Source of the DNA: a virus
DNA: 64,000 bases
Direction: 5' to 3' (one strand)
Virus record (IMG/VR): IMGVR_UViG_3300044838_000071
Location: 1-64,000 of that record
Positions 13,165-62,934 of the stretch are shown piece by piece; position 1 is the stretch's first letter, and every line of letters starts with the position of its first letter. A program made the position numbers and the translations under genes. Below the pieces are notes generated by a model, which was given only the letters and a program-made list of their open reading frames with translations, was not told the DNA's origin and did not search any database.

Positions 13165-13192
13165 AGTATACACGACAGATGGCCGACTTCAA
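13165..13192 (-). promoter_or_regulatory. leftward promoter of the accessory operon
   Basis: On the minus strand TTGAAG (13192-13187) and TATACT (13170-13165) are 16 bases apart. The -35 lies inside the start of the HNH gene on the other strand. The word ATACACGAC (13168-13176) resembles the ATACACGGC units upstream of the gene at 2332, so the two promoters may share a regulator. Confidence 0.55.
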
Positions 13193-13670
13193 GCTGATTC
13201 CCCTGCACGGTCGAAAAGGCGTCGTGCGGGGGTACGCGAAGGTCGATCCCGAGGACTATGCCGAGCTGAGCCGTTGGCGATGGCACCTGCTCGGTGGCCG
13301 ACACCGCTACGCCGCTCGCACCGTTGCTCTGGGTGGCGGGAAGACGCGGCACGTCCTCATGCACCGGCAGATCCTAGGGACTCCGCCACAGCTACAGACC
13401 GACCACAAGAACGGCGACAAGCTGGACAATCGGCGCAGCAACCTACGCATCGTCAAGCAGGTGCAGAACGCGCAGAACCTTCGATCGCTCCGCAGCGACA
13501 ACACCTCGGGCTATCGAGGCGTCACGTGGCAGAAGGATGCCCAGAAATGGAAGGCGCAAGGCAAAATCGGTCGTCGCCTGCATCTCATCGGCTACTTCGA
13601 CGATGTCCATGAGGCAGGACGCGCCGCCGCCGCGTGGCGAGCCGAACACATGCCGTTCTCGACGAGCTAA
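13179..13670 (+). CDS. AP2-HNH homing endonuclease
   Basis: This 163-residue protein has the common phage layout: an N-terminal strand-rich region (FKLIPLHG), an HNH core with HRQILG...DHKNGDKLDNRRSNLR (residues about 65-90) and a C-terminal AP2 DNA-binding domain starting SGYRGVTWQKDAQKW. Such genes are usually free-standing homing endonucleases. It is transcribed against the leftward operon and covers that operon's -35 element. No good ribosome binding site is seen. Confidence 0.88.
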   Translation: MADFKLIPLHGRKGVVRGYAKVDPEDYAELSRWRWHLLGGRHRYAARTVALGGGKTRHVLMHRQILGTPPQLQTDHKNGDKLDNRRSNLRIVKQVQNAQNLRSLRSDNTSGYRGVTWQKDAQKWKAQGKIGRRLHLIGYFDDVHEAGRAAAAWRAEHMPFSTS

Positions 13671-16990: not shown

Positions 16991-17205
16991 GCCCCTGCGT
17001 CCTCGTTGACCGGGCTCTGCCGGGCTGTGGGACGCGCCGACGGTCTGGTGCGCGTGATGTCCCTGAGTCGGCCCCAGAACGCCTTACGCGCGCGATCCTC
17101 ACCACCATGGCGGTATCGCGAGCGGCACGTCTCGCCATGGAAAACTGCGTCTGCCCTCATCCCGGTCAGCGGTTCGCCGCAGCCCTTGCAGAGATTGTCG
17201 TTCAC
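16987..17205 (-). CDS. treble-clef zinc-finger protein
   Basis: A 72-residue protein with CKGCGEPL...FHGETCRSRYRH (residues 6-31), the pattern of small zinc proteins that bind nucleic acid. Its Arg-rich tail (RPSARPTARQSPVNE) is encoded by copy 3 of the dispersed repeat. GTG at 17205 is set by overlap with the HNH gene's stop. Confidence 0.55.
   Translation of the reverse strand: MNDNLCKGCGEPLTGMRADAVFHGETCRSRYRHGGEDRARKAFWGRLRDITRTRPSARPTARQSPVNEDAGA
17006..17034 (+). repeat. dispersed CCGGGCT repeat, copy 3
   Basis: TTGACCGGGCT-CTG-CCGGGCT followed by GTGGGACG. It lies in the 3' coding end of the gene at 16987-17205, read on the opposite strand. Confidence 0.6.
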
Positions 17206-17729
17206 GCCGCGACCTCGTCGGCGTCGGCACTGGACGGCATGCTCTGCGCCCTGAACGCCGCCGCCACGCGCGCGGCCTCGTTGACGTCGTCGAACAGGCC
17301 GAGGTGGTGGTGGCGGTAGTTGACGACGGCCTGCGCCGCCCACTTCTGGCGCTGTCGATGCCAAGTGACGCCGCGGTGTCCCGACGTGTTGCGACCGTGT
17401 GGGACGGCGCGGTTCTGTACGTTCTGAATGCACGTGCCTGGCCGAAGATTCGCCCGTCGGTTGTCAAGTTTGTCGCCGTTCCGATGGTCAACGTGGATGT
17501 CGGGATCGGACACCCCGAGCAGGTCGCGCGATAGATAGGCTCCATCGCCGCGAGCAACGCGGCCTCGGCCGGTGAGATGCCATCTGTGGGCGATGACCGC
17601 GATGTAGTCGGCGGCGTCGATGATCGCGTAGGCCCGCACCGATCCGTCGCGGCGCCGGAGGGGAATCAGCGCTACTTGTCCCACGCCTGCGGTAGCCTCT
17701 CCCTTGGATCCTCCCATGATCCTCAGCAT
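17202..17729 (-). CDS. AP2-HNH homing endonuclease
   Basis: A 175-residue paralogue of the protein at 13179-13670. It has VALIPLRRRDGS at the start, the HNH core HVDHRNGDKLDNRRANLR near residue 85 and the AP2 domain SGHRGVTWHRQRQKW near residue 115. The start is uncertain: ATG at 17729, ATG at 17717 and a GTG further in are all possible. A strong hairpin (17731-17766) covers the GGGGGCG that would serve as binding site for ATG 17729, so translation may be held down. Confidence 0.85.
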   Translation of the reverse strand: MLRIMGGSKGEATAGVGQVALIPLRRRDGSVRAYAIIDAADYIAVIAHRWHLTGRGRVARGDGAYLSRDLLGVSDPDIHVDHRNGDKLDNRRANLRPGTCIQNVQNRAVPHGRNTSGHRGVTWHRQRQKWAAQAVVNYRHHHLGLFDDVNEAARVAAAFRAQSMPSSADADEVAA

Positions 17730-56492: not shown

Positions 56493-57476
56493 CTACGCCA
56501 CCGCTTTTTCAAAGAACTGCCCGAGGTCCGACGCGACGATCTGCACGTCGTAGGCAGCCCGGATCTGCAGGATGTCCGAGTGCGCCAGCTCTTCGCGGCC
56601 ACGCTCGATCACCCCACCGAACGCGTTTGTGAGGCCGGGAAGCAGCCCGGTCCACGCGAACGTGTAGCCCGCCGAGGGCTCTTCGAGGCTCGGCGCCGGT
56701 GCGGAGTAGACCATCAGCATGCTCTTGCTGCCGACGAGGAAGTCGATCGAGTCGGCTTCGCCCTCCGCAGCGCTGTTGATCACGCCATAGGGCACCAGGA
56801 CCCTGTCAAACCCGAACAGCTCGGCCAGGAGCTCGACCGTCAGCACACCGCGCTGCGTGTACTTGATCCGGTCGGTGATAGCCGAGTGGTTCTCCAGCAC
56901 GTCGACGACATCCGGGCCCAGCACGAGCGTGTTGGGCATGAAGCCCGTCGCGCGCGCCATTTCCGTACGCCGTTTTTTGAAGAACGAGATCGGTTCCGAG
57001 CCCGACTGGTCGAACTGCAGGAATTTTTTGGCAGTCGCGCCCGAGGACACGCCTTCCCAGTCGGCGCTCCACACGCCCGTTTTGTAGTACTTTTCCGCCC
57101 ACATCCGGTCACGGCGGATCAGCGCTTGGGTCGTGAGGAGGCGCATCCCTGCACGGTCCGGCTCGAACACCGAGTCAGCGTTCGCCCGCACACGGTCATC
57201 GATCGCGTGCTCAAGGCCCCACTCCTCAGCGTTGTACCGGCCCTTGTCGACTTCGTAGCCTGCCCGCGGCGGCCGTCCACCGAGCGGGCGCACTTTGAGC
57301 TCGTCCCTGAAGAACGCGCCTTTCTTGTAGATCGCGTAGAAGTTGGATTCCTTCAGCACCGGCACGGTCGGGAAGACCTTGTCGGCGATGAAGTTCGCCT
57401 GCTTCTGCGCGTACGCCACACTGATCTCCGTCAGATAGGTATCGATGTGTAGCGCTGGGGGTGTGACATCAGGCAT
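56493..57476 (-). CDS. major capsid protein
   Basis: A 327-residue protein in the classic slot after scaffold and decoration genes, of normal size for a HK97-fold capsid. It has LHIDTYLTEISVAYAQKQANFIADKVFPTVPV at the start and a charged central part; VIERGREELAHSDILQIRAAYDVQIV at the end is the typical P-domain. A strong AAAGGAG precedes ATG 57476. The GroES gene downstream may help fold it. Confidence 0.88.
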   Translation of the reverse strand: MPDVTPPALHIDTYLTEISVAYAQKQANFIADKVFPTVPVLKESNFYAIYKKGAFFRDELKVRPLGGRPPRAGYEVDKGRYNAEEWGLEHAIDDRVRANADSVFEPDRAGMRLLTTQALIRRDRMWAEKYYKTGVWSADWEGVSSGATAKKFLQFDQSGSEPISFFKKRRTEMARATGFMPNTLVLGPDVVDVLENHSAITDRIKYTQRGVLTVELLAELFGFDRVLVPYGVINSAAEGEADSIDFLVGSKSMLMVYSAPAPSLEEPSAGYTFAWTGLLPGLTNAFGGVIERGREELAHSDILQIRAAYDVQIVASDLGQFFEKAVA

Positions 57477-57510: not shown

Positions 57511-57876
57511 CTAAGCCTTGGCCCCAGTTCCAGCGTGGATAAGCACCGGCACGTACGACCCAGCTTTGCCCGTTTCGAGCGCCTGGCCGAGGATGAACTG
57601 CCCCGACGCAGCGGGCTGGATCGTGCCGTCGTTCTTCGGCGCCACGAATTCGCCCTCTTTCACTTCGGTGCCGACCTTCACCTTCGCGACACCGCCGAGA
57701 GCGACCGTGCCGTGGAGGTTTTCCTTCGGGTTGTCGATCAGGACCACGCCGACATCGCCCGACGCCGCAGCGACGATCGTGTCCGACGAGGTGATCTTGA
57801 CCACCGTGTACTGCTTTGCTGAGAGATCTGCGCCGGCCTTGAAGGTCCACCGCAGAGTCACCTTGTCAACTGCCAT
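57511..57876 (-). CDS. capsid decoration protein (DUF2190-like)
   Basis: A 121-residue protein with AGADLSAKQYTVVKITSSDTI, GVVLIDNP and GQFILGQALETGKAGSYVPVLI, the pattern of small beta-tulip capsid decoration proteins. Directly upstream of the capsid gene. Confidence 0.78.
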   Translation of the reverse strand: MAVDKVTLRWTFKAGADLSAKQYTVVKITSSDTIVAAASGDVGVVLIDNPKENLHGTVALGGVAKVKVGTEVKEGEFVAPKNDGTIQPAASGQFILGQALETGKAGSYVPVLIHAGTGAKA

Positions 57877-57911: not shown

Positions 57912-58778
57912 CTAGCGGCGAATCTCGCCCGCGTACTCGCGCTCGAGGTCGGGGTTGTCCTGCATGGCCTTGTCCAGCGCCTCGGCTGCGCTGAGGCTCG
58001 AGTCGCTCTTGCGCAGCTCCTCGGCCTTGCTCTGCAGCTTCGACAGCGCGTCCGTGCCGGAGCCCGGAGCGGTGCTCGCGCCGACCTCCTTGAACAGGTC
58101 GCTGCGGCGGATCTGCTCGTCGGCCGCCTTGAGGATCCTGTTCAGCTCCTCGTTCTGCTCCTTGGTCAGCGGCACGCCCTCGTCGGCGCTCTTGAGAATC
58201 GGGCCGAGCGTGACGGCCTGCGCCGGCAAGGCGCGCAGCTCCTCGGCCTTGCTGATGAACTCGCGGGTGACACGCTGGTTGCGCTCCGCCTTCGCGAGCT
58301 CGTCAGCGGCCTCCGCCTGCTTCTCTGCCTTCGTCAGACGCTCGGCCAGGGCCGCGTTGTCCGACTCCGCCTTCTCGAGCGCGGCACGAGCCTCGGGCGA
58401 GAGGTCCTCCTTTTTCACCGGGGGCTTCTTGGGGTCGGTGGTGTCGTCCTTGTCGCCACCTTCACCCGGCGATTTCGCTGCGGCCTTGGCCAGCGCCTCG
58501 TCGCGCTCCTTCTCGACCTTCTCGACGGCAGCTTTCGCTGCATCGCGGGCCTCTTCGGCCTCCTTCTTCTCGCGCTCGGACTTCTCGAGCTCCGCGCGCA
58601 GCTCCTCTGCACTCTTCTCCATGTGATCGCCTCCTTTGGCGGTCGTTGGTAGCTCGGCCCCCTCGCGCTTCCAGACCAGGAAGCGCCTCGGCTCCGACTT
58701 GTGTTGGGGATCGCGCACGGCGGCCCGATCAACGAGACTCACGTAATCGACCGTGAGGTCCTGCAAACGGTTTGGCAT
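57912..58778 (-). CDS. scaffold-like protein with XkdF C-terminal signature
   Basis: The 288-residue protein starts MPNRLQDLTVDYVSLVDRAAVRDPQHKSE, the segment that in XkdF-type proteins follows the protease domain, then forms a long acidic coiled coil (60-240), as in head scaffolds. It starts behind GAGGAGGAACGC. The protease half lies in a separate gene (62371-62934) with a glycosylation cassette and an HNH gene between them. Confidence 0.75.
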   Translation of the reverse strand: MPNRLQDLTVDYVSLVDRAAVRDPQHKSEPRRFLVWKREGAELPTTAKGGDHMEKSAEELRAELEKSEREKKEAEEARDAAKAAVEKVEKERDEALAKAAAKSPGEGGDKDDTTDPKKPPVKKEDLSPEARAALEKAESDNAALAERLTKAEKQAEAADELAKAERNQRVTREFISKAEELRALPAQAVTLGPILKSADEGVPLTKEQNEELNRILKAADEQIRRSDLFKEVGASTAPGSGTDALSKLQSKAEELRKSDSSLSAAEALDKAMQDNPDLEREYAGEIRR

Positions 58779-58839
58779 GCGTTCCTCCTCGCGGGCACCC
58801 ATCGCCCGTGGGTCGTTTAGACTCGGAGGCACGAAAAGG

Positions 58840-58872
58840 TGCCCCCGCGCGAGGTCAGAATCGCCGGGGGCA
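58840..58872. terminator. GC hairpin upstream of an HNH gene
   Basis: TGCCCCCG (58840-58847) and CGGGGGCA (58865-58872) form a perfect 8-bp stem with a 17-base loop, just upstream of the HNH gene start. A smaller hairpin GGCAC-GAAAAG-GTGCC overlaps its left side. It resembles the hairpin at 17731-17766. Confidence 0.55.
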
Positions 58873-58899
58873 GGCCACACCTAACTAGGAGGTGCGACG

Positions 58900-59379
58900 G
58901 TGCCGAAGGGTATCTATCCTCGTAAGCGTAAGTACGGCGATCCAGCCAAACGCTTCTGGCCGAAGGTCAATAGGGACGGTCCTATACCCGTCACGCGCCC
59001 GGACCTTGGTCGATGCTGGCTCTGGACCGGCTGTCTCTCCAAGGGCTATGGACAATTGAAGGTCAGTGGCCGTGCGATTCGGGCTTACCGCTTCGCCTAC
59101 GAGCTACTGATCGGGCCGATTCCAGATGGCCTAGAGCCCGATCATCTCTGCCGCAACATCGCCTGCGTGAATCCGCACCATCTGGAGCTGGTTACACACC
59201 GTGAGAACGTCCTGCGGGGCGACAGCCCATCCGCACACGCTGCCCGTAAGACACATTGCGCGCGGGGTCACGCGTTCGACATGAGCAACACCCTGATCCG
59301 ACCCGATGGCTCACGCCAATGTCGAACCTGTCGACGCGAGCGCAACCGACGGCCTACCCGGAGGGCGCTCCACCGTTGA
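58900..59379 (+). CDS. HNH endonuclease
   Basis: A 159-residue protein beginning [20 protein letters not shown], followed by [19 protein letters not shown], the HNH core [26 protein letters not shown] and the ribbon CARGHAF...CRTCRR. GTG at 58900 has AGGAGGTGCGACG. It lies against the head operon, between the scaffold and methyltransferase-like genes. Confidence 0.88.
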
Positions 59380-59620
59380 CTCGCGCTTGGCCGCCCGGCA
59401 CCACGATCCTTCGGCCGGCGGCTTGGCGTGCAGTTGCTACTCGAAGCTCCTCGTCGGAGACGGCGAGAGCCTTCGAGATTTCGTCGCATCCCTGTGTGGG
59501 GAGCGGGATGCGGAAGATGTTGTCGCCGACCGTGACGATGAGGTTGCGGTGGATGAACTCACCGTCGCCCTCCGCGAGGCTCACCGGCCCGCGCAGCACG
59601 TGTTCAATCTCGCCAAGCAT
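59354..59620 (-). CDS. hypothetical protein of the head region
   Basis: An 88-residue protein ([41 protein letters not shown]...) behind AGGGAGAACGCC. Its end overlaps the HNH gene on the other strand. No family recognised. Confidence 0.6.
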
Positions 59621-59637
59621 GGCGTTCTCCCTTCGTG

Positions 59638-59667
59638 TTTGACCGGGCTGTGCCGGGCTAGGACTGG
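59638..59667 (+). repeat. dispersed CCGGGCT repeat, copy 6
   Basis: TTTGACCGGGCT-GTG-CCGGGCT-AGGACTGG lies in the gap between the methyltransferase-like gene and the 88-residue gene, just upstream of the latter's ribosome binding site. Confidence 0.6.
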
Positions 59668-59676
59668 CTCTGCGAG

Positions 59677-60333
59677 CTACAGCGGCCGGTAGAGCGTCTG
59701 AGCCGGGGATCCCCGGTAGCCGTCGTTTCTGCGGTCGCCCGTGATGACGAGGCCGAGGCCGCCCCACCACTGGTTCGCGAACGGTCCCTCGGCGAACTCG
59801 CGGCCAGGGACGAAGTCGAGCTCGTGGTAGACGATCTTCGCGTGCGCGGCGATCGCCAGTTCCACGCCCAGCCGCACATCGAGGTTCGCGGTGTCGTGCA
59901 GCAGGATCACGGTGGAGGGCGTCGCCGAGGAGTCGAGCAGCGCGGAGAGATCTTCGCGCGCCCCCTCCGGCGTGTGGTCGCCATCGACGAAGGCGAACTC
60001 GACCATGCAGCCGCGGCCGGCGAGGGACGCCAGCGTGGCCGGCAGCAGCTTGTGGCTGTCGCCGGTGTGGCAGGTCACGTTCCCGAGCGCCGCGACCTCG
60101 TCCGCAGGCAGCACCAGGTCGAAGCTGTGAACGCTGTGGCTGTACGCGGCGATGCGCGCCAGGCTCCCGCCGGCGGCGCTCCCGACCTCGAGCGCGATCT
60201 TCGGTCTCAGCTGCAGCAGGACGCCCTCGAGCGCCGCGCGCTCGCCGAAGGACATCTGCGTGCGCTCGTCGGCGAGCAGGGGGATCGGCGCGTTGCCGAG
60301 CGGCTGCGGGAGATGTGTCGTCACGGTCGGCAC
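59677..60333 (-). CDS. class I SAM-dependent methyltransferase
   Basis: This 218-residue protein shows the cofactor motif ALEVGSAAGGSLARIA near residue 45 and the FAFVDGDHTPEGAREDL segment near residue 113, as in Methyltransf_24 sugar or small-molecule methyltransferases. GTG at 60333 has GAGGAGGTGA, excluding the much longer frame read upstream in another gene. With two glycosyltransferases beside it, it probably methylates a sugar on virion proteins. Confidence 0.75.
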   Translation of the reverse strand: MPTVTTHLPQPLGNAPIPLLADERTQMSFGERAALEGVLLQLRPKIALEVGSAAGGSLARIAAYSHSVHSFDLVLPADEVAALGNVTCHTGDSHKLLPATLASLAGRGCMVEFAFVDGDHTPEGAREDLSALLDSSATPSTVILLHDTANLDVRLGVELAIAAHAKIVYHELDFVPGREFAEGPFANQWWGGLGLVITGDRRNDGYRGSPAQTLYRPL

Positions 60334-60827
60334 AGCGCGATCACCTCCTCGTGCCACACGGGCTGACCGGCCAGACGGGCCGTGCTGGCGATGAAGTCGT
60401 AGTCGCCCTCGTAGCGGTCGCCCCACCAGCCGCGCCGCTCGGGCACGTTCGGCACCACGACCATCTGCGTCGAGACGTTGCCGCAGATCAGCGCCGGCGT
60501 GCGCCAGATCGTGTCGCCGTTCGGGTAGCGCATCCTGAAGACGTGCATCCGGCTCGGCTCGATGTCGAGTGCCGCGCGCACGGCCACCAGTGCGCCGTCG
60601 GCGTACTCGTCGTCGTCGTCCATGAACAGCAGCGAGTCGCCCCTGGCGCGGGTCATCAGCTCGTTGCGCGCCCTGTGGCCCCACGGCGCGTCGTCGTTGA
60701 CGCTCACCAGCAGCTCGTCGCCCGGCAGCATCTGCGTCGCGGCGCTGTCGAGCGTGCGCGCCAGCGTCGGACGCCCGCTCGAAGCGACGATGATCGACAG
60801 GCGGATGCGGTTCGCCTTGACGGTCAT
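60321..60827 (-). CDS. GT-A family glycosyltransferase
   Basis: A 168-residue glycosyltransferase with RLSIIVASSGRPTLARTLDSA (start of a GT2 domain) and FMDDDDEYADG near residue 70, the DxD-type metal site. It is short for the family, so it may be a minimal enzyme. Part of the inserted glycosylation cassette. Confidence 0.75.
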   Translation of the reverse strand: MTVKANRIRLSIIVASSGRPTLARTLDSAATQMLPGDELLVSVNDDAPWGHRARNELMTRARGDSLLFMDDDDEYADGALVAVRAALDIEPSRMHVFRMRYPNGDTIWRTPALICGNVSTQMVVVPNVPERRGWWGDRYEGDYDFIASTARLAGQPVWHEEVIALCRP

Positions 60828-61072
60828 CGCCCGCGGATAAGCCTCGCGTCCCTACGCGTCAAGATGCCCCTGAACGCGGTGCGTAGCGGGTACGCGGACT
60901 TCGGAGGTGTGGGCCGCGCCTTCCTCGGCCGTTTCGTCTGCACGCGCTCGACCACGCTCTGCATGTCGGTCTTGATCGCCACGCCCTCCGGCGCGCGGCT
61001 GACATCGTCGCGCTGACGGCGCTCGTGACGCCGACGCATCCGATCCAAGATGAACCTCTTGCGCAGTCCCAT
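60824..61072 (-). CDS. small basic hypothetical protein
   Basis: An 82-residue protein, very rich in Arg and Lys (MGLRKRFILDRMRRRHERRQ..). ATG at 61072 has GAGGGGGTAC. Function unknown. Confidence 0.55.
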   Translation of the reverse strand: MGLRKRFILDRMRRRHERRQRDDVSRAPEGVAIKTDMQSVVERVQTKRPRKARPTPPKSAYPLRTAFRGILTRRDARLIRGR

Positions 61073-61074
61073 CG

Positions 61075-61191
61075 CTAGTACCCCCTCTTGATTTGACGCC
61101 GCCACGACCACTCATCCCACGCGTAGACCACGATCAGCGCGACCGTCGAACCGGCGAACACGCCGACCGGGATCAGCAGCGCGAGCTTCAC
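61075..61191 (-). CDS. 38-residue membrane peptide
   Basis: VKLALLIPVGVFAGSTVALIVVYAWDEW... has one membrane helix and a basic end. GTG at 61191 overlaps the glycosyltransferase stop. Possibly an anchor for the glycosylation enzymes. Confidence 0.5.
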   Translation of the reverse strand: MKLALLIPVGVFAGSTVALIVVYAWDEWSWRRQIKRGY

Positions 61192-62267
61192 GCCGCCACC
61201 CGGTGCCGTGCTCGAGCGCCGTCCCACGCCTCCTGCCACTTCCAGCCCTGGCCCTCGTACGTGTGCCTCTCGGCGACGATCTCACGGCCACGCGCAGCCA
61301 TCTCCTTGCGCAGCGGCTCGTCCTCCATCAGCCGCACCAGCTGGGCGCGCCAGTTGCGTGACCGTGGAGGCGCCAGCAACCCGATGCCCTGCTCGGCCAG
61401 CCACTCGTACTCCGGCAGCGGAGAGGCGACGAACGGCACGCCGCGGGCGGCGAACTCAATCCCCTTCAGGTAGCTCTTCGCGGCGTTGAAGGCCGTGTCG
61501 CCGAGCGGCACGATCCCGACGTTGAGCACGCCGAGCGCGCTGTGCCACTCGTCGATCCCGAGGAAGCCCGTGCCCTCCACCTGGCCAATGCCCAGCTGCT
61601 CGCCGACATCGTCGGGCTTGCCCACCACGCGGAAGCGCCAGCCCGTCCGCTTCAGCGCCTCGGCGACGCCGCCATGCGTCACCGCGAGGTCGCCGGGGTG
61701 GATCTCCGCCACGCCGGTCCAGCCGAGCGTCAGCCGGCCCGCGTCCCAGCGGGGCTTCTCGAGCAGCGACTGCGGCACGCAGTTCGGCAGCACCGCCACA
61801 CGGCCATGCGCGCCGTAGCGGTCGGCGAGCGCTGGTGTCGTGACCGTCACGAGATCCGCCATCGCGCACGCCTTGTGCAGGTTCTGCCAGTTGACGCGCC
61901 CGTTCAGCGCGGGGTTGAAGTGGTCGTGGAACGGATGCTGCGCGTGCAGGCAGGAGAAGTCGTCGTCGACGTCCACGATCACCGTCTGGCCCTGCGCCTG
62001 GAAGAGCCGGATCAGCTCCTGCGTCTCCTTCTTCGCGGGACGCTGCATCACGATCACGTCCGCCTCGATCTTCGGGTGCATCTCCTGCCCATCGATGACG
62101 CGCGATTCCTGGTCCGCGGCGACAATCGAGCCGTCGTGATCCCGGCCGATCGTGTACGTGTTGTCCACCACCACCTCGTGGCCTTCGAGCTCGGCGATGC
62201 GCGCCGGCTCGGCCATGCGGTAGAAGCAGCAGCCCGCCTCGTCGGCCGGGAGGAAGCGGATCCTCAT
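61188..62267 (-). CDS. glycosyltransferase family 4-like
   Basis: A 359-residue enzyme with the GT-B layout: MRIRFLPADEAGCCFYRMAEPA at the start and AAKSYLKGIEFAARGVPFVASPLPEYEW in the C-terminal nucleotide-sugar binding half. It probably adds sugars to a virion or host surface protein. It is the largest gene of the cassette between the two XkdF-type halves. Confidence 0.82.
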   Translation of the reverse strand: MRIRFLPADEAGCCFYRMAEPARIAELEGHEVVVDNTYTIGRDHDGSIVAADQESRVIDGQEMHPKIEADVIVMQRPAKKETQELIRLFQAQGQTVIVDVDDDFSCLHAQHPFHDHFNPALNGRVNWQNLHKACAMADLVTVTTPALADRYGAHGRVAVLPNCVPQSLLEKPRWDAGRLTLGWTGVAEIHPGDLAVTHGGVAEALKRTGWRFRVVGKPDDVGEQLGIGQVEGTGFLGIDEWHSALGVLNVGIVPLGDTAFNAAKSYLKGIEFAARGVPFVASPLPEYEWLAEQGIGLLAPPRSRNWRAQLVRLMEDEPLRKEMAARGREIVAERHTYEGQGWKWQEAWDGARARHRVAA

Positions 62268-62371
62268 CGGCGGGTCTTGCGGTCGGGGATCTTCGCCTGC
62301 GCCGCTGCGAGGACCGCCTCCATGCGCCGCGCGTCGGCCTTGATCACGACGACCACCACCGCGCGCGCCAT
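62264..62371 (-). CDS. 35-residue peptide
   Basis: MARAVVVVVIKADARRMEAVLAAAQ... is linked to the genes on both sides by short overlaps. It may be a leftover or a coupling frame. Confidence 0.4.
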   Translation of the reverse strand: MARAVVVVVIKADARRMEAVLAAAQAKIPDRKTRR

Positions 62372-62934
62372 CACGCCTCCTCTGCGAGGCGGACGCCGCT
62401 GCCGCCGATCGAGTAGCCCGTCAGCTCGCCCTTGCAGATCCGGCCCCAGAGCTCGCTGTCGTGGATCTTGTGCGCGATGACCCACGCGCCCTTCTGCACG
62501 CGCTGGCCGGCGACTTCGAGATCGCACGGCGCCACGTAGCTCTCGACCACGTCGACGCCCGCAGCCATCTCGTTGTGCTGCACGTCCGAGCGGCGCGAGT
62601 CGGCGAGATACGTGTGCGCGGCCTTCTCGATTTCCTGCGGGCTGACGATGTCGCCCTGCGAGTCGACCTGGTCGGGCTCGAGCACGACGCCGTAGACGAT
62701 CTGCTTGCTCTCGTCCTTCCAGATCGGCACGACGATCTCGGCGTCGGACTTCTTGAGCGCCGGATACTTGCTGTGCACCGCCGCCTTGACCTTGCCCTCC
62801 TCGGGCTTGCCGGACGCGCGCGAGAGCGCGTTGGCGGCGTGCGATTGGTCGTGGATCGGGTATTCGCGCTTGTCGGGGATCGCGAACGCCGAGCTGGGAA
62901 GCTTCTCGCGCTCCTCGGTGGTGAGAGTGGCCAT
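62371..62934 (-). CDS. XkdF-like prohead protease domain protein
   Basis: A 187-residue protein with KQIVYGVVLEPDQVDSQGDIVSPQEIEKAAHTY, VQHNE, VESYVAP, KGAWVIAHKI and LWGRICKGELTGYSIGG, the conserved order of XkdF-type phage serine protease domains. The usual C-terminal scaffold part is in another gene (57912-58778). ATG at 62934 follows AAAGGAGCAGCC; ATG at 63000, coupled to the previous stop, is an alternative and would add MPDATPSDLHIDSY, similar to the capsid N-terminus. Confidence 0.75.
   Translation of the reverse strand: MATLTTEEREKLPSSAFAIPDKREYPIHDQSHAANALSRASGKPEEGKVKAAVHSKYPALKKSDAEIVVPIWKDESKQIVYGVVLEPDQVDSQGDIVSPQEIEKAAHTYLADSRRSDVQHNEMAAGVDVVESYVAPCDLEVAGQRVQKGAWVIAHKIHDSELWGRICKGELTGYSIGGSGVRLAEEA

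Follow-up and report, generated by a model that had tools for sequence, protein, structure and literature searches.

A predicted sugar-modification cassette lies between separate genes for an XkdF-type protease and a scaffold-like protein in a viral head module

Gene content of the locus

The IMG/VR virus record IMGVR_UViG_3300044838_000071 is a 70.8-kb contig, of which we analyzed positions 1 to 64,000 (64,000 nucleotides, hereafter the window). In its head module, about 3.6 kb of sequence separates the stop of a gene for an XkdF-type head maturation protease from the start of a gene for a coiled-coil, scaffold-like protein. In PBSX-type prophages both parts belong to one protein, XkdF, and a preliminary description of this DNA had proposed that a glycosylation cassette was inserted into such a gene, with both halves kept as working genes. 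Our comparison of related loci favors a different history, in which the two genes were already separate when the cassette arrived. On the minus strand, the portal gene, whose product contains 2H and MuF domains, is followed in order by a gene for a repetitive protein, small genes, the protease gene, the cassette, the scaffold-like gene, the decoration-like gene and the gene for the major capsid protein (MCP). Because the decoration-like and major capsid genes come next, the locus at 57912-58778 can be placed in the head module. The features are as follows, with E-values (E) for family matches; names such as L177 denote related loci, L021/L175 being one relative and L022/L177 another.

62371..62934, minus strand: XkdF-type head maturation protease, 187 amino acids (PF14550, phrog_3017)
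62264..62371, minus strand: open reading frame (ORF) of 35 amino acids; its start overlaps the protease stop (TGATG) and its stop overlaps the start of the next gene (ATGA)
61188..62267, minus strand: glycosyltransferase 1 (GT1), GT-B like (PF13524, E 3.9e-7; phrog_7162, E 1.4e-35)
61075..61191, minus strand: small hydrophobic protein of 38 amino acids; its start overlaps the GT1 stop (GTGA)
60824..61072, minus strand: small ORF of ~82 amino acids, no family match
60321..60827, minus strand: glycosyltransferase family 2 (GT2, GT-A) with a DDD motif (PF00535, E 1.1e-7); homologue in L177
59677..60333, minus strand: S-adenosylmethionine (SAM) methyltransferase, Methyltransf_24 type (PF13578, E 1.3e-8); homologue in L177
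59354..59620, minus strand: conserved small protein of 88 amino acids (..VLRGPV..FRIPLP..), the final cassette gene ahead of the scaffold-like gene
58900..59379, plus strand: HNH endonuclease, antisense, at the scaffold end of the cassette (PF13392, E 2.2e-12); the corresponding stretch of L177 is without HNH
57912..58778, minus strand: scaffold-like coiled-coil protein, 288 amino acids from ATG, assigned by gene position (homologues 49-56% identical)
58665..58772, minus strand: mobile VSLVDRAA...FLVWKR segment at the N-terminus of the scaffold-like protein (segment profile E 3.6e-12), a protease-associated strand in fused relatives
57511..57876, minus strand: decoration-like protein (phrog_673, E 8.6e-13; synteny with relatives)
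56493..57476, minus strand: MCP (phrog_1005, E 1.2e-80)

The product of 62371-62934 is an XkdF-type protease, as first described. It matches PF14550 ('Putative phage serine protease XkdF') with E 2.5e-34 and 118.4 bits, far above the curated cut-off of 24, and phrog_3017, a head maturation protease family, with E 9.7e-43. His120 and Ser175 are invariant in alignments with relatives and are candidate catalytic residues. Residues 1-56 form a separate small domain that resembles DUF6582 (phrog_16160).

The sole family match of the scaffold-like protein is phrog_17741 (E 1.9e-11), whose function label reads 'unknown'. The protein is rich in coiled coil and is encoded between the protease and the decoration and major capsid genes; by analogy it may be a capsid scaffold, and we call it scaffold-like. 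VSLVDRAA occupies its residues 13-20. The gene is preceded by GAGGAGG, which resembles a ribosome-binding site, and its start is conserved among relatives. Having its own such sequence and a conserved start, the scaffold N-terminus is not a broken gene end.

Family matches bear out the earlier account of the intervening 3.6 kb, which holds two glycosyltransferases, a gene resembling sugar methyltransferases, small genes and an HNH gene, the last of these antisense. The glycosyltransferase and methyltransferase matches mark sugar-modification genes. GT1 is the leading cassette gene in every cassette-bearing relative, with homologues in L177, L178, L024, L244 and L023, and shares 37% identity with a gene from Arthrobacter phage Racecar. 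The methyltransferase weakly resembles rhamnosyl O-methyltransferase/CmcI (PF04989, E 0.02). ORFs resembling the 88-residue protein, as judged by eye, stand at the equivalent spot in L177 and L024.

Separate and fused genes across related loci

Some 250 loci were gathered by searches with four- and five-member protease and scaffold alignments. Queries with one protein recovered few relatives, if any, and the diversity of a nine-member alignment made it unusable as a query. Loci were sorted with a profile of the segment, most copies of which had been missed by a strict regular expression. The survey rests on 143 non-redundant classified loci, with 25 more left unclassified after removal of near-duplicates.

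Protease and scaffold are separate genes at 84 of the 143 loci, with a median gap of 18.5 bp. Another 57 loci encode PBSX-like fusions in which a VSxVD segment stands ahead of the protease, and two encode fusions with the segment behind it. The segment thus takes three positions across loci: ahead of the protease, behind it, or on the gene that follows. Each locus has one segment, carried by either the protease or the scaffold. None of the 84 separate-class protease ORFs contains it, and the fused proteins carry a single copy each, with no second copy in the following gene. A profile built solely from the 84 scaffold ends matches the pre-protease segment in all 57 fusions (17 to 42 bits), as well as both post-protease fusions; the best of 1180 shuffled control sequences reached 4.4 bits. 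Since the scaffold-end profile detects every fused copy, the scaffold-end and fused-protein segments are homologous.

Known phages show both arrangements. XkdF of prophage PBSX and its counterparts in Bacillus PBP180, Enterococcus EG-TP1 and Lactococcus 28201 share with the window the protease family, a VSxVDxxAN..F..K segment and the position in the head module. These PBSX-type proteins, however, join segment (VSYVDKAAN..FF..K), protease and coiled scaffold in one polypeptide, whereas the window has two genes, with the segment on the second, the scaffold-like gene. In Methanobacterium phages psiM2 and PhiF3 an XkdF-type protease is followed by a VSIVDRP/ISLTDKP-like segment and a coiled tail, again fused, unlike the window. 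In RcZahn, DLP5, MS03 and the L002 contig the protease stands alone and the next gene opens with the segment. Vibrio phage ICP1 also has separate genes, in the same order as the window (gp125 protease, gp124 scaffold, gp123 decoration, gp122 coat), but with no cassette between gp125 and gp124 and with very distant sequences; the segment profile found no segment in gp124. PMC10945586 reports that gp124 is a scaffold, and it is only for this protein that a role in procapsid assembly is demonstrated.

The preliminary description was therefore right that both window proteins cover parts of XkdF, and that segment and coiled-coil tail join the protease in single proteins, as they do in PBSX-type prophages, psiM2 and the relative L023. 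The order it assumed is not that of the PBSX type, where the segment comes before the protease and not after it. It had also taken families with the halves always as separate genes to speak against a split; separate genes are what most loci have, though fusions also exist.

Close relatives and the history of the junction

The nearest cassette-free relative, L021/L175, has two genes 13 bp apart, the protease 61% and the scaffold 54% identical to those of the window. Other relatives carry cassettes of varied content. The slot between protease and scaffold holds GT1, GT2 and a methyltransferase in L177, with no HNH gene; GT1, an epimerase, an acyltransferase-like gene and GT2 in L024, also with no HNH gene; and GT1, GT2, an epimerase, a C-methyltransferase, a cupin, a uridine diphosphate (UDP)-sugar dehydrogenase and an FkbM methyltransferase in L244. 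In L178, seven bases part the protease gene from GT1. In L023, GT1 directly precedes the gene for a single 520-residue protein composed of protease, VSLVDRAA and scaffold. An uninterrupted gene, expected in relatives if the window's gene had been split, thus exists in L023 and is not present in L021/L175.

A tree of concatenated protease, scaffold, decoration protein and MCP places the window, L177, L024, L178 and L244, all with the cassette in the slot, in one clade with the fused L023 (support 98/95). L023 is sister to all five cassette-bearing lineages. L175 is the next branch outside the clade (83/90), and the outgroups are all separate-gene lineages. Being sister to the cassette group inside an otherwise separate-gene clade, L023 looks like a later fusion, and from this placement we infer the direction of change between the separate and fused states.

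Our preferred explanation, to which we give a probability of about 75%, is that protease and scaffold were already separate in the ancestor and that the cassette was gained once at or near their junction and was remodelled. The two would have been ordinary neighboring head genes before the cassette came. Its single gain, at or beside the junction, would fall in the ancestor of the small clade, with remodelling since. The cheapest history would run from separate genes through one cassette gain to a fusion on the L023 branch.

The alternatives differ in where they place the break. Insertion of the cassette inside a single XkdF-type gene, as first proposed, draws on the existence of fused homologues and on the order of parts in the L023 protein, which is the one proposed. 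Counter to this, the genes are separate in cassette-free L021, in all tree outgroups and at 84 of the 143 loci, L023 is nested among separate-gene lineages, and both window genes end and start exactly at the boundaries of the relatives' separate genes. We consider this history the least probable of those weighed here. Only a little higher do we rate homing, in which the antisense HNH gene drove the insertion. That gene sits where the cassette meets the scaffold-like gene, and the phage has several HNH-type genes, but L177 and L024 carry the cassette without HNH in the slot. Improbable too, although by a shade the best of the three, is an ancestor of the six-member clade that was already fused with GT1 upstream, as in L023, and was re-split when glycosyltransferase genes moved into the fusion. 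L023 is indeed sister to the other five, with GT1 immediately upstream of its fusion. Such a course requires a fusion followed by fission at the ancestral boundary, one more change, and in the cassette members the scaffold has an N-terminus matching that of relatives that were never fused.

Several points weigh against an ancestor with separate genes and a cassette acting on the virion. The natural fusion in L023 has precisely the order first proposed, and L023 is sister to the five cassette lineages, so that a fused and later re-split ancestor costs only one extra step. The placement of L175 is not strongly supported (83/90), and its MCP is truncated on the contig. All of the relatives are metagenomic contigs, and both the sugar and its target are predictions. 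More generally, two genes need not be the remains of a split one where the best-known members of their family are fused.

The protease-scaffold junction as an insertion slot

Gaps of more than 2 kb occur at six of the 84 separate loci: the window, L177, L024, L244 and the distant L200 and L233. All six hold sugar-, sulfate- or methyl-type genes. The modules of the two distant phages are unrelated to the window cassette; that of L233 (L233:9847-14675) encodes a Methyltransf_24 enzyme, a B12-binding radical SAM enzyme, two paralogues labeled unknown and a sulfatase, and no glycosyltransferases. As four of the six wide-gap loci form one clade, about three independent gains are indicated. Inserts of more than 0.7 kb at the scaffold-decoration and decoration-MCP junctions were found at none of 53 loci. 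We regard the preference for this slot as a tendency and not as a strong statistic. A junction that has received sugar-modification genes at least three times offers a handle for finding candidate glycosylated virions.

What the cassette may do

Start and stop codons overlap at the borders of the protease and the 35-residue ORF, that ORF and GT1, GT1 and the 38-residue ORF, the 82-residue ORF and GT2, and GT2 and the methyltransferase. Because genes overlap or nearly touch all the way from the protease to the methyltransferase, by way of GT1 and GT2, the cassette should be made late, with the capsid; such late expression with the head genes is a prediction from gene spacing. Two glycosyltransferases and a methyltransferase of a sugar O-methylating type, probably co-translated with the protease, point to late production of a methyl-capped glycan. 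The cassette probably builds a methylated sugar, and virion glycosylation is plausible. As its product we lean slightly toward a short sugar with an O-methyl cap, carried by a virion protein. Such a glycan would alter how the particle is seen or sticks.

There are precedents in part. In mycobacteriophages, glycosyltransferases encoded by the phage attach glycans to capsid and tail proteins (Freeman et al. 2023, cited in PMC12619734); that glycosylation is experimental, whereas here it is predicted from genes. Relatives of GT1 lie near head genes in Streptomyces phage Zuko, where a UDP-sugar gene and a glycosyltransferase precede TerL, and in podovirus ctQWt234, where a glycosyltransferase/methyltransferase block follows the MCP. 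Neither junction is that of the window.

Alternatively, the cassette may modify phage DNA or the host surface and not virion proteins, which we consider a real possibility although the lesser one. Phage glycosyltransferases are known for changes to DNA and host surfaces, according to a review (PMC12619734), and the cassette includes the 38-residue hydrophobic protein. Arguing for the virion, the cassette sits inside the head operon. No thymidylate-synthase-like gene, of the sort linked to hydroxymethylated bases, was found in the part of the genome searched, a weak argument against DNA glycosylation, and no multi-span membrane flippase or GtrB-like gene was found among the ORFs scanned in that part.

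The mobile segment and the protease fold

An AlphaFold model of the fused relative L049 (residues 1-169, 35 sequences, predicted TM-score 0.76) renders the segment as a 14-residue strand with a predicted local distance difference test score (pLDDT) of 81-91, joined to the protease by a 20-residue linker with pLDDT below 50. With so floppy a tether, a confidently modelled strand would be able to relocate to either terminus or onto a different polypeptide. For the L023 fusion the model used protease rows only, because alignments that combined fused and separate proteins placed the short scaffold ends wrongly; its segment has pLDDT below 50 and is uninformative. Residue coupling between segment and protease domain is suggestive only: the top pairs lie beside the catalytic His and Ser, from 71-98 effective sequences and uncontrolled for ancestry. 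A fold search of BFVD returned XkdF-like and prohead proteases only. A fold search of the PDB gave no significant match, and a sequence search of solved structures gave no match.

The segment may work with the protease. Tentatively, and at somewhat less than even odds, VSLVDRAA...FLVWK may be a strand that has become detached from the protease fold; in separate-gene phages the scaffold would then complete the maturation protease in trans. If true, this would tie protease activity to procapsid assembly, and a strand supplied by the scaffold would explain how the protease stays inactive before the scaffold carries it into the procapsid.

The protease domain in other contexts and further genes

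The DUF6582-like domain (phrog_16160) is also found by itself in Klebsiella phage MY01 and Komagataeibacter phage phiKX2. Through its own protease domain, the window protease also matches phrog_1530 and phrog_14859, named 'DNA methyltransferase' and 'RNA ligase'. These names probably derive from fusions of protease and enzyme, and many phage proteases are probably mis-annotated as DNA methyltransferases. Many relatives have the XkdF-type protease as the C-terminal domain of a long enzyme polyprotein encoded between MuF and scaffold (for example L181:5620-9339, L036:4351-9339, L034:5122-9339, L216:6226-9363 and L205:7054-9465). The domains carried by 43 polyproteins of this kind include, with the number of proteins, ATP-dependent DNA ligase (10), uracil-DNA glycosylase (9), Methyltransf_11 (7), 2H/LigT (5), D12 DNA methyltransferase (4) and NUDIX with His-phosphatase (3). 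The enzymes may be packaged together with the protease and then released by cleavage in the procapsid.

Polyvalent proteins (Iyer et al. 2017; PMC5512222) are similar: an assemblin-like peptidase stands at the C-terminus of multi-enzyme phage proteins and 2H domains are fused to portal/MuF, with no mention of DNA ligase. The likeness concerns the relatives' polyproteins and the portal gene of this phage, not the cassette. That portal protein, of 957 amino acids, has 2'-5' RNA ligase/LigT and MuF domains in one polypeptide and lies outside the window (L009:6741-9614; record 67740-70613, minus strand). Further mobile-type nucleases are encoded by HNH_3+AP2 genes at window positions 13179-13670 and 17202-17729 and by a DUF559/REase_MTES_1575 gene at L009:6056-6775.

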